From positions 496,001-560,000 of the forward strand of contig NZ_JAGSYC010000024.1 in assembly GCF_025685545.1 (NCBI RefSeq): a stretch of DNA of 64,000 bases, given 5' to 3'. The stretch comes from Granulicella paludicola. GTDB taxonomy: Bacteria > Acidobacteriota > Terriglobia > Terriglobales > Acidobacteriaceae. This document shows, piece by piece, positions 15,793 through 57,366 of this stretch; the first letter of the stretch is position 1, and each line of letters begins with the position of its first letter. The position numbers were made by a program, and so were the translations under genes. The notes under the pieces are model-generated. The model saw only the letters and a list, made by a program, of their open reading frames with translations, was not told where the DNA came from and did not search any database.

Positions 15793-16999
15793 ACGAAACC
15801 TTCCCCAGCACCACAGCCCGCTTCGCACCCGTAGCACTCGGGACATTGCCCGGCAGTCCATGCCACGTCAGCCACCCGAGCAGCGCAAACGCTGCGGCCT
15901 CCTTGGCCTCGACAGCCAGCCCCGCGCTCTCCGTCGTCCCCACCTTCACACCCAGAGCTGCAAACTTTTCCGTCAATCCACGCATTAGCGTCTTGTTCTT
16001 CGCGCCACCTCCCGCGATCAGCATCTCCGTCGCCTTCGCCCCCGGAGCAATCTGCCCCAGGTGCGGCCAGCAGAACTTGCCGTACGCCTCAACGATCGTC
16101 GACACCGTCAGCCCCGTCGCCGTCGCCACAATATCTTCCTTCGTCGCTCCCGCCTTCTCGCACAACGCGATCAGCTTATCGACAAACTCCTTGCCAAACT
16201 CCTCGCGCCCGCAAGACTTCGGCGGCTTTGCCTGCAGATACTTCATCGCCGACATCTTCTTCACCACCTCGGTCAGTGCCATACCCTTCGCCGCCGTGCG
16301 TCCGCTGCTGTCATACTCCTTACCAAACAGCCGCTGCATCACTGCATCGATCACCATGTTCGCCGGGCCTGTGTCGAACGCCATCGCATCCTTCACATCG
16401 CAGTCGGCAGGCAGCGCCGTCACGTTCGCAATGCCGCCCAGATTCAGCAGCAACCGGTTCTTCGTTGCATGGCAGAACAGGTGCCAGTCCAGCATCGGCA
16501 CCAGCGGAGCCCCCTGTCCGCCCGCAGCCATATCCGCCGGTCGAAAGTCACTCACCACCGGCAGCTGCAGCCGCTCGGCAATCACCGCGGACTCACCGAT
16601 CTGCCACGTCATCCCCTCATCCGCATCATGAAAGATCGTCTGCCCATGCACCGCCACCAGCTGCGGGCTTAGCTTGAACTGCTTCGCCGTCTTCTCCACG
16701 CACGCCGCATACTCTTCGCCCAGCTTCCAGCTCAACGTCGCCAGCTTCGCCGCCGTCATCTTCTGTCCACTCGCAGCCGCCAGCACCATCGCGCGCAGCT
16801 TCTTGCCATATGCAAATTTGCTATGCCCCAGCACCTTCACCGGAGCCACACCACTACGCCCCAGCGACACGCGACAGATCGCCACATCCACACCGTCCGC
16901 CGACGTTCCACTCATTACACCGGCGACCACCATCGCCTTTGTTGCTGCACCTGCCGCTTTGCTTGTCATTCCCGCAGGGAATCTGCTGTTGTCTATCAT
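15782..16999 (-). CDS. anmK: anhydro-N-acetylmuramic acid kinase
   Basis: 405-residue peptidoglycan-recycling kinase that phosphorylates and opens 1,6-anhydroMurNAc. MSGTSADGVDVA is the conserved N-terminal phosphate-binding motif. VAVHGQTIFHDADEGMTWQIGE, NLGGIANVT, AFDTGPANMVIDA and the late LIAGGGAKNKTLMRGL are all family signatures. The ATG at 16999 shares ATGA with the mutS stop, implying translational coupling. The first 11 or so residues are encoded by a family B repeat; orthologues begin close to VVAGVMSGTS, so the first 22 residues are extra, and internal ATGs at residues 11 and 23 are alternatives. Confidence 0.93.
   Translation of the reverse strand: MIDNSRFPAGMTSKAAGAATKAMVVAGVMSGTSADGVDVAICRVSLGRSGVAPVKVLGHSKFAYGKKLRAMVLAAASGQKMTAAKLATLSWKLGEEYAACVEKTAKQFKLSPQLVAVHGQTIFHDADEGMTWQIGESAVIAERLQLPVVSDFRPADMAAGGQGAPLVPMLDWHLFCHATKNRLLLNLGGIANVTALPADCDVKDAMAFDTGPANMVIDAVMQRLFGKEYDSSGRTAAKGMALTEVVKKMSAMKYLQAKPPKSCGREEFGKEFVDKLIALCEKAGATKEDIVATATGLTVSTIVEAYGKFCWPHLGQIAPGAKATEMLIAGGGAKNKTLMRGLTEKFAALGVKVGTTESAGLAVEAKEAAAFALLGWLTWHGLPGNVPSATGAKRAVVLGKVSYGG
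16962..16990. repeat. dispersed repeat, family B, at the 5' end of anmK
   Basis: CTTGTCATTCCCGCAGGGAATCTGCTG with the small palindrome TTCCCGCAGGGAA. It lies between the mutS stop and the conserved part of anmK and is read in frame as SRFPAGMTSK. Confidence 0.85.
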
Positions 17000-26254: not shown

Positions 26255-26280
26255 CTAAGTTCTGCACACGCCCGCTTTGA

Positions 26281-26350
26281 AGGATACGGGCTTCAGCCCG
26301 TGCATAGAATGCTCCATACCATCAATGGCTTTAGCCCCGGAGGCGGCGGA
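26281..26350. repeat. family C hairpins (GGGC-TTCA-GCCC)
   Basis: ATACGGGCTTCAGCCCGTGCAT followed by a decayed GGCTTTAGCCCC copy in the gap between the convergent PAS and SCO genes. The same hairpins sit inside hemC at 28236 and 28275, and upstream of hemD. Confidence 0.75.
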
Positions 26351-27235: not shown

Positions 27236-27311
27236 ATTCAAATCCTACGCTCGCATCACGACAGACACGCACCCCGAAGTCCGCTCATCGCCCACCCCCA
27301 CCACAACTCCC

Positions 27312-27359
27312 CGTCATTCTGAGCGAAGGCCGCAGGCCGCAGCCGAAGAACCCCGAAGC
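27312..27359. repeat. dispersed repeat, family A (long form)
   Basis: CGTCATTCTGAGCGAAGGCC...GCAGCCGAAGAACCCCGAAG, with an internal GGCCGCAGGCCGC palindrome, between the SCO gene and hemC. A near-identical copy is at 31643-31690 after katG. Confidence 0.85.
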
Positions 27360-27477: not shown

Positions 27478-28611
27478 GTGAGCACTCAAACCATTCGTAT
27501 CGGCTCGCGCGGCTCTCAGCTCGCGCTCTGGCAGGCCAACCACATCGCCGCGGACCTCCGCGCACTCGGCCACACCGTTGAAATCGAGATCATCCGCACC
27601 GTCGGCGACCGCATGCAGGACCCCAACTTCGTCGTCCCGGCCACCTTCCCCGATGGCTCGCCTCTTGACGCCAAAGGCATCTTCATCAAGGAGATCGAAG
27701 ACGCCCTCCTCGCCGGTCGCATCGACCTCGCCGTGCACTCCCTCAAAGACCTGCCCACGCAACTGGACCCGCGCTTCACCCTCGCCGCCATCCCACCGCG
27801 CGCCGACGCCCGCGACGCCTTCGTCTGCGAAGACCACTGGGGCCTGCACATGCTGCCCTCCGGCTCGCGCGTTGCCACCACCAGCCCACGGCGTCAGGCC
27901 ATGATCTCCGCCCTCCGCCCCGATCTGCAGTTTGTAGAGATGCGCGGCAACATCGACACCCGCCTTCGCAAGTGGGAAGAAGGCCAATGCGACGCTCTCA
28001 TCCTCGCGTCCGCCGGTCTCGACCGCCTCGGCCGCACCGAGCACGTCCATCAGCGCTTCTCCATCGACGAACTCACCCCGGCCCCCGGCCAGGGAGCCCT
28101 CGGCCTCGAGGTCCGATGTCCAGACCCCTCCACAAATGTCCGTCATTCTGAGCAAGCTAAAAATTGTCATCCTGAGCGGAGCGCAGCGGAGTCGAAGGAC
28201 CTGCTTCTTGATGGTGCGGGCAATCCTTTGAAGGGGACGGGCTTCAGCCCGTCCGTTGCATCGCCCCGCAAAGAAGGGGCTTCAGCCCCTGAGGGAAACC
28301 ACGCCCGCGACCGCGCCATCTACGACGCCATCCGCGCCCTCAACTGCGCCACCACGGAATACGCCGTCACCGCCGAACGCACCGTCCTCAACTCCCTCGG
28401 CGGAGGCTGCTCACTCCCTCTCGGAGCCTACTGCCACAACACTGGCGAAGAGTGGCACCTCCACGCGATGGTCGTCTCCCCCGACGGTGAACAGGTAGCC
28501 CACCTCATCCAGAAAGCCCCCTGCGGCATCGCCGCGACCGACCTCGGCGAATCCGTGGCCGAAGCCCTCAAAGCCCGCGGCGCCATGGAACTTCTGCAGC
28601 AAACCGCGTAG
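27478..28611 (+). CDS. hemC: hydroxymethylbilane synthase (porphobilinogen deaminase) with in-frame repeat insertion
   Basis: Polymerises four porphobilinogens to hydroxymethylbilane. IRIGSRGSQLALWQA, RTVGDRMQD, GIFIKEIEDALLAGRIDLAVHSLKDLPT and TSPRRQAM are conserved; the dipyrromethane cofactor Cys is in LGGGCSLPLGAYC. The protein is 377 residues, against about 310 in the family. The excess lies between LEVRCPD and RDRAIYDAIRAL (residues about 221-273), precisely where two family A pieces and two family C hairpins occur. Catalytic segments on both sides are intact, so it is probably functional. The GTG start at 27478 directly precedes STQTIRIGSRGS. Confidence 0.95.
   Translation: MSTQTIRIGSRGSQLALWQANHIAADLRALGHTVEIEIIRTVGDRMQDPNFVVPATFPDGSPLDAKGIFIKEIEDALLAGRIDLAVHSLKDLPTQLDPRFTLAAIPPRADARDAFVCEDHWGLHMLPSGSRVATTSPRRQAMISALRPDLQFVEMRGNIDTRLRKWEEGQCDALILASAGLDRLGRTEHVHQRFSIDELTPAPGQGALGLEVRCPDPSTNVRHSEQAKNCHPERSAAESKDLLLDGAGNPLKGTGFSPSVASPRKEGASAPEGNHARDRAIYDAIRALNCATTEYAVTAERTVLNSLGGGCSLPLGAYCHNTGEEWHLHAMVVSPDGEQVAHLIQKAPCGIAATDLGESVAEALKARGAMELLQQTA
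28140..28210. repeat. two family A repeats inside hemC
   Basis: A partial unit CGTCATTCTGAGCAAGC (28140-28157), then a full one, GTCATCCTGAGCGGAGCG...GAAGGACCTGCTTCTTG (28163-28210). They are translated without a stop as VRHSEQAKNCHPERSAAESKDLLLD. Confidence 0.9.
28236..28294. repeat. two family C hairpins inside hemC
   Basis: GACGGGC-TTCA-GCCCGTC (perfect seven-pair stem, 28236-28253) and AGGGGC-TTCA-GCCCCT (28275-28290). Both have TTCA loops. They are translated as KGTGFSPSVA and KEGASAPEG. Confidence 0.9.
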
Positions 28612-28634
28612 CTCCGCAGAAATTGTTTTTTTTG

Positions 28635-28713
28635 CTTGCCATTCCCGAAGGGAATTAATTCTGCATTTGCCTCGTGCCTTTTGTTTGTCATTCCCGAAGG
28701 GAATCTGCTTCTC
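28635..28713. repeat. two tandem family B repeats after hemC
   Basis: Copies at 28635-28664 (TTGCCATTCCCGAAGGGAATTAATTCTG) and 28684-28713 (TTTGTCATTCCCGAAGGGAATCTGCTTCT), 20 bases apart, in the non-coding gap between hemC and perR. Confidence 0.85.
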
Positions 28714-29328: not shown

Positions 29329-31563
<2,235 letters not shown>

Positions 31564-31690: not shown

Positions 31691-31763
31691 AGTCCTTACC
31701 CCACCCAAGCCGCCAACCTCTTTCCAACGCAAGCAGCTCAAGCCGTCTTCCAGCTCCCCTGCC

Positions 31764-31822
31764 GAGGTTTACGCCGCCTCCGACGCCCCGGGAAAATTCG
31801 TCAAGGACTCGTGGCCGCCTGG
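31764..31822 (+). pseudogene. decayed duplicate of the katG 3' end
   Basis: 59 bases matching katG 31462-31521 at about nine positions in ten (GAGGTTTACGCCGCCTCCGA... GCCGCCTGG), with a one-base deletion that breaks the frame. The katG copy encodes [20 protein letters not shown]. Flanking sequence does not match katG. It is a remnant of a second katG or of a local duplication. Confidence 0.8.
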
Positions 31823-45879: not shown

Positions 45880-46040
45880 ATTCCACGGTCTCTCCGTAAG
45901 GAGAGTGAAAAGGGAATCCGGTGAAATCCCGGAACTGTCCCGCAGCGGTAAGCAGGTACGAACGTCGACGATGACACTGGAGCGTTGCTCTGGGAAGTCC
46001 AGACTAATAGGTACGAGCCTGCAGAGTCCGAAGACCTGCC
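45880..46040 (+). ncRNA. cobalamin (AdoCbl) riboswitch upstream of nrdA
   Basis: Shows the conserved core in order: GGGAATCCGGTGAAATCCCGG, ACTGTCCCGCAGCGGTAAGC, a variable arm, and the B12-box element GAGTCCGAAGACCTGCC ending at 46040. It should sense adenosylcobalamin and repress nrdAB when B12 is available. The 120-base leader that follows contains GCGCCTCC/GGAGAGGCG inverted sequence and the AAGGAG ribosome site of nrdA, which could form the expression platform. Confidence 0.95.
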
Positions 46041-57189: not shown

Positions 57190-57366
57190 TGATGTGCAGG
57201 TCAAAGCCTCTCAAGGCTTTGTTAAACGGGAAGCCGGTGTAACTCCGGCGCTGTCCCGCAGCGGTGATGGGAACGAAAGATTGCGCGGCGCAAGCCAACG
57301 CACTGTCTCACAGAGACGGGAAGCGGCAATCCGGTAGGTCGCCCAGAGTCCGAAGACCGGCCTGCC
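57190..57366 (+). ncRNA. cobalamin riboswitch upstream of metE
   Basis: Conserved elements in order: GGGAAGCCGGTGTAACTCCGGC, GCTGTCCCGCAGCGGTGATGGG, a long variable arm, GGGAAGCGGCAATCCGG, and the B12 box GAGTCCGAAGACCGGCCTGCC. TATAAA at 57180 may be the -10. It should switch off metE when cobalamin is present, leaving B12-dependent MetH to make methionine. Confidence 0.95.

Follow-up and report, generated by a model that had tools for sequence, protein, structure and literature searches.

In-frame dispersed repeats within hemC of Granulicella paludicola, very probably tolerated as a passive loop of the encoded enzyme

The hemC locus and its extra segment

The window, meaning the whole stretch of 64,000 nucleotides analysed, corresponded to C20:496001-560000 of a Granulicella paludicola genome (G000; 4.96 Mb, rated 100% complete). 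Its plus strand carried hemC at positions 27478 to 28611 (stop codon included), starting with GTG and encoding a hydroxymethylbilane synthase (HMBS) of 377 residues. A preliminary description, made from the letters of the sequence, had named this gene, and the assignment was upheld by profile searches, in which the open reading frame reached 296 bits with NCBIfam TIGR00212 (cut-off 164), 242 bits with Pfam Porphobil_deam (PF01379) and 52 bits with Porphobil_deamC (PF03900), both Pfam scores lying above the cut-off. The extra segment separated the two Pfam-matched parts. A single HemC match was found in the G000 genome, the remaining matches to the HemC query being confined to the repeat-encoded stretch. 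Moreover, the reading frame ran without a stop across 28140-28294, as had been claimed, within an open frame of 574 codons.

Between R213 and L288 of the window HemC, 74 residues were counted, the equivalent spacing being 8-20 residues (median 12) in 42 HemC proteins from outside the genus and 12-23 in members of the genus and family, except for G007 (34). The protein had been described as about 65 residues longer than its family, which fits the wider family (+62), while the excess over most genus members was about 51. In the alignment with the genus, the family and the 42 outside-genus proteins, the segment exceeding the relatives extended from about residue 219 to 276 (about 28132 to 28303, plus strand), and in the repeat-free relatives this position was taken up by no more than a short linker; the comparable repeat-free domain that, according to the preliminary description, would have refuted the claim was not seen. 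More distant HemC proteins from a wider contig scan served as outgroups and as input for structure prediction. The codon of the active-site cysteine C311 (28408 to 28410, plus strand), a residue invariant in alignments of 28 and of 43 sequences, lay 3′ of the insert, as the preliminary description had stated. C311 is taken here to be the cofactor-binding cysteine, and the insert presumably occupies the linker ahead of domain 3, the HMBS domain that carries this cysteine. Tryptic peptides predicted to span the segment include GTGFSPSVASPR and EGASAPEGNHAR.

The AlphaFold model of HemC, built with 43 sequences, had a mean pLDDT of 87, with values below 50 in the core of the insert (residues 224-231 and 233-260) and above 90 in most of the remainder, catalytic parts included; a moderate dip at about residues 41-70 corresponded to a loop unrelated to the insert. 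The best structural matches of the model in Foldseek were two HMBS structures of E. coli, 1ah5 and 1pda. In this prediction, the HMBS domains keep their normal fold, and the insert forms a disordered loop. Furthermore, the hemC genes of G000 and G007, which differed by a dS of about 0.4, showed a dN/dS of 0.17 before the insert and 0.34 after it, compared with 0.10 and 0.19, respectively, in the insert-free pair G015-G010. Purifying selection has acted on HemC both before and after the insert, and its action on the latter part implies that this part is translated. The higher post-insert value relative to the insert-free pair would possibly reflect some relaxation or a mild cost of the insert.

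Composition of the inserted segment

The segment had been placed at 28140-28294; it proved to be repeat DNA, as claimed, but with other limits, namely an element at 28225 to 28295 inside the larger excess given above. The motif GGGCTTCAGCCC occurred 64 times in the G000 genome (0 and 1 for the reversed control), and the consensus of these sites was GCTTTGAAGGG(T/G)ACGGGCTTCAGCCCGTAC - variable linker - GGGGCTTTAGCCCCGGAGGG. Most of the sites represented one composite element, with the two hairpins spaced 36-42 bases apart, and 34 well-preserved two-hairpin copies were found around them. In hemC, this composite REP-like element was 71 bp long, lay on the plus strand and read PLKGTGFSPSVASPRKEGASAPEG in translation. 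DNA folding placed its hairpin 1, GGACGGGC-TTCA-GCCCGTCC, at 28235 to 28254 and its hairpin 2, AGGGGC-TTCA-GCCCCT, at 28275 to 28290, both on the plus strand. Another copy, detected by the repeat search outside hemC, occupied 26274 to 26344 of the plus strand (genome position C20:522288).

The rest of the repeat DNA in the segment belonged to a different family, designated A, of which a short piece (GTCATTCTGAGC; 28142 to 28153, plus strand) was recognized by the repeat search of the window and direct reading, and a longer piece (GTCATCCTGAGCGGAGCGCAGCGGAGTCGAAGGACCTGCTTCTT, translated CHPERSAAESKDLL; 28166 to 28209, plus strand) by the repeat search. The exact family A pattern (GTCATCCTGAGCGNAGCGAAGGA) had 29 copies in G000, with 0 for the control, and zero copies in the G007 genome. 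The repeat search and direct reading also gave a family A-like copy 5′ of hemC (27314 to 27350, plus strand). Family A is a dispersed repeat unrelated to the REP-like element, so the earlier proposal of at least two unrelated repeat families within one essential gene was confirmed, both being far above chance.

Single-stranded DNA folding compared with shuffled sequences yielded z = -2.2 for the REP-like element, -2.65 for its G007 copy and +1.2 for the family A part of hemC, for which a hairpin was rejected on that value. The preliminary description had counted four hairpins; the two GGGC-TTCA-GCCC hairpins are real but form a single element, whereas the family A pieces are not hairpins. The notion of two separate hairpin insertions in hemC was discarded, as the line-up of the 64 sites revealed one composite element.

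Several other repeats were observed in the window. The family A match between 27296-27324 and 28125-28153, with 25 of 29 positions identical, took in some 17 bases of the 5′ flank; this may hint at a copying of the hemC family A piece from the spacer 5′ of hemC, or may be due to chance. A third dispersed repeat, TTGTTTGTCATTCCCGAAGGGAATCTGCTTCTC, had two copies directly 3′ of hemC (28632-28664 and 28681-28713) and more at 16959, 41745 and 48616. Besides, the 3′ end of a katG-like gene included a stretch of 48 bp (31460-31507) that recurred 302 bp downstream (31762-31809) with 92% identity, perhaps as a partial duplication of the gene end, and two 45-bp stretches (45905-45949 and 57221-57265), 82% identical, appeared to resemble parts of cobalamin riboswitches.

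History of the hemC insertion

The hemC gene of G007 carried the same element at the same site, without family A (LKGTGFSPSVASGQREGALAPEA). Hairpin 1 was identical in the two genes, and the linker had diverged after GTTGCATC. In the alignment, the element was missing from the hemC of G015 and of 23 other genus members, G015 being the sister of G007 in the tree of HemC, MetG and ValS (support 1.0). The simplest reading of these sequences would be one gain before the split of G000, G007 and G015, a loss in G015 and, in the lineage of G000, the subsequent arrival of family A; alternatively, the element was possibly gained twice, independently, at one hemC site.

The element in other genes of the genus

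The same element was present in frame in ValS, MetG, AlaS, LigD and MoeA of G000, and about 20 more kinds of gene carried it across the genus. In all, in-frame invasion by such repeats was recognized in at least 27 kinds of gene of the genus. With a profile of the 24-residue element peptide, the best genus-wide matches fell in long open frames of recognisable proteins. The identities of the host genes came from profile matches and, for a few, from reading. Thus, family searches identified RimO, LeuS, HemD, LysS, GlmS, MnmG, MnmE, TsaD, ProA, QueA, an Lhr-like helicase and a GH57/DUF3536 protein, while MiaB (L214) was named from reading and two Pfam domains. The frames of MurB, RibF, RsmI and an amidohydrolase were set aside, with the element near the gene start and probably 5′ of the true start. 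In the QueA gene of G007 (L216), at least two separate repeat insertions were observed, overlapping hairpins among them.

A survey of G007 with the DNA motif, unbiased as to frame, returned 25 elements in a well-preserved state, including one overlapping pair; about 11 of the 25 lay in genes, compared with roughly 6 of the 34 well-preserved copies inside recognisable genes in G000, both fractions being derived from the regions around exact-motif seeds. In G007, copies in other frames were detected in AsnS and an isoaspartyl peptidase, and antisense copies in MurD, IspE and the CCA-adding enzyme. Strict conservation of the frame, an idea prompted by the reading ALKGTGFSP in every one of the six copies first found in genes, was dropped after this survey. 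Most copies of the element were open in at least one frame per strand. The frame of the element is not fixed, and the openness of most copies on each strand helps them to reside in genes. In terms of function, 12 of the 27 host families counted, a count that took in mainly recognisable conserved genes, act in tRNA charging or modification, an excess with a binomial p of about 1e-5 to 2e-4 against a baseline that we assumed at 11-15% of core genes.

Shared landing sites in MetG and ValS

Just 3′ of the KMSKS loop of MetG (ETILDAFG), nine genus members held 36-138 codons of in-frame repeats, and about ten others had a linker of 15 codons at the same site. At least three kinds of repeat were involved, among this element, variant doublets with different stems, the hairpin type present at the second RAYT described below and family A. 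The carriers were scattered over the tree and, therefore, several gains or many losses took place. As a separate observation, the stem of the variant doublet at this site (L328 compared with L320 and L321) differed on both sides between species, from GTGGGCTTCAGCCCAC to GTGGCCTTCAGGCCAC, with the hairpin kept.

ValS of G000 was interrupted at two places, once by family A and once by a REP, and neither insert was present in G007 or in about 20 others. In the ValS of G016 (L360), different extra stretches (GAPSSPTGSSSVRVGTGEAGAA and a near copy) were noted at both of these sites, apparently representing another in-frame repeat family.

A transposase gene linked to the element

On C17, a small gene for an HUH/Y1 RAYT-like transposase (L173:8109-8681) sat between two inverted copies of the element, one just 5′ of the start codon and the other, inverted, overlapping the 3′ end. 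Its protein scored 71 bits with NF047646 (cut-off 80) and 24.1 bits with PF01797 (Y1_Tnp; cut-off 23). A second RAYT, in L062, scored 127 bits with NF047646, above the cut-off, and was flanked by related hairpins. Moreover, a Y1_Tnp gene of G027 (C7) was bracketed alike by inverted element copies, and Y1_Tnp genes were present in 26 of the 28 genus genomes. A transposase flanked in this manner is the arrangement expected for a REP-type element and its mobilising enzyme, and the sequences suggest that the 71-bp element is probably mobilised by a RAYT-type (HUH/Y1) transposase.

Two features of REP/RAYT systems were found, namely a short palindrome dispersed in many copies (64 sites, 34 good copies) and a transposase gene flanked by the same repeat (L173:8109-8681; G027 C7). 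On the other hand, the terminal GTAG/CGTC tetranucleotide was absent from the hairpin foot, the conserved ends being TTTGAAGGG and GGAGGG, and the GGGGWSAS motif of some acidobacterial TIRs was absent from the element consensus. The inverted pair that characterises a REPIN was likewise not found, as CTT(C/T)AG stood on the same strand in both hairpins, element after element. No clean boundary for a target-site duplication could be defined because the flanks of the element had diverged. In addition, the element showed long blocks of orientation on C1 of G007 (mostly plus from 0.2 to 1.5 Mb and mostly minus from 2.15 to 2.96 Mb). A preference for one replication strand, of the sort known for IS200-type transposition, might underlie these blocks.

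Interpretation of the hemC insert

By far the most probable explanation is that mobile repeats were tolerated in frame in hemC and are presumably translated as a passive loop of HemC. According to this, the two-hairpin REP-like element of about 71 bp would first have become established in the linker that follows the cofactor-binding domain, as an insertion common to G007; later, and in the G000 lineage only, pieces of the unrelated family A would have been added beside it. The gene would be translated straight through, the repeats giving rise to some 50 unstructured residues that loop out at the surface, are tolerated by the enzyme and would be nearly neutral.

An alternative is that the hairpins have a selected role in the mRNA, where they would be retained for slowing ribosomes or stabilising the message at domain boundaries. 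The inserts do sit at linkers, joining domains in HMBS and connecting the ligase part to the polymerase part in LigD, and G000 and G007 have retained an identical hairpin 1 despite the diverged linker. However, tolerance alone accounts for the linker positions, many relatives have nothing inserted at these sites and the family A part has no hairpin, which makes such a role improbable. A broader version would regard loops of essential genes in the genus, above all those for tRNA charging and modification, as docking sites for several unrelated repeat families, whose RNA hairpins would be kept to tune translation or folding at domain boundaries, beyond mere tolerance; we consider it similarly unlikely.

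Excision of the segment from the RNA, in the manner of an intron, or a ribosomal hop over it, as stable hairpins within an essential gene might suggest, is very unlikely. Removal would not need hemC, along with more than 20 further genes, to keep a stop-free frame, nor every MetG pile-up (36-138 codons) to leave the downstream frame intact; besides, no known RNA family was found in the region of the segment, where one chance match fell far under the gathering score.

Less credible still is a functional protein module, that is, an adaptive loop of HemC. Both G007 and G000 kept the element over the divergence measured in hemC, as such a module might, but the insert is predicted with low confidence and as disordered, its content differs per species, it is absent in G015, and the same peptide is found in unrelated enzymes. 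Finally, a decaying pseudogene or an assembly artefact can be given almost no weight since, even if repeats are typical spots for misassembly, G007 is a separate single-contig genome with the same element at the same site, and this is the sole hemC of a complete genome, with both halves under purifying selection.

Comparison with known systems

Although the name REP stands for extragenic, this element has copies within recognisable genes, many of which are essential. The occurrence of filled and empty sites in close species makes the translation, cost, site choice and exit of RAYT-linked repeats testable. It also carries a warning for annotation, as many housekeeping enzymes of the genus contain repeat-encoded loops. 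No description of the element family in this genus was found in the literature, of which subscription papers were thinly covered.

REPINs are commonly described as inverted doublets that are extragenic. In contrast, the doublet found here is a direct pair, with many copies in genes. The likeness to Pseudomonas REPIN/RAYT systems lies in dispersed REP doublets and a cognate transposase gene flanked by them (PMC3116915, PMC2817692). Passages of another paper describe the TIRYT/TIRtron systems of Acidobacteria, in which tyrosine transposases with inverted repeats on either side, known from Terriglobus, Granulicella, Acidobacterium and Koribacter, make up a group of their own; one of the flanking repeats of Koribacter constitutes a dispersed family (PMC3733652). 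Compared by motif alone, the present consensus differs in lacking GGGGWSAS, which only some TIRs have, and copies of those repeats within genes are not described in the text of these passages (PMC3733652).

The insertion in frame in conserved genes, absent from orthologues, was observed in the HemC, MetG and ValS alignments. The likeness to Rickettsia palindromic elements (RPE) that the preliminary description had drawn holds for this in-frame behaviour, and genus-wide, with intragenic REPs as the closer precedent (PMC3733652). RPE have been known in frame in conserved genes since 2000, and a guanylate kinase bearing one is made and active as a protein (PMC2229807). Set beside them by description, both are mobile palindromes that have joined conserved genes in frame, but RPE are 105-146 bp long, with a long stem-loop, and occur in Rickettsia (PMC2229807), while the element here measures 71 bp, consists of two hairpins and is linked to a RAYT-like gene, and its hosts are acidobacteria with genomes of mostly 4-6 Mb.

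Intragenic GTAG/CGTC REPs, including dimers and double insertions, were reported in several bacteria (PMC3733652, BMC Genomics 2013), and no acidobacterial intragenic case is among those given in the passages of that paper referred to here. In these passages, the REPs are small palindromes, often dimers, that lie wholly inside ORFs, with tRNA synthetases, a DNA ligase and RNA helicases among the hosts; single inserts add 20-30 aa and clusters 43-82 aa, and one gene may have been entered more than once (PMC3733652). Relative to REPs as described there, the element of Granulicella carries no GTAG or CGTC tag, has both hairpins in the same orientation and was seen to pile up with an unrelated repeat at the same site. 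It represents a new and unusually abundant family within the known tradition of in-frame intragenic repeats.
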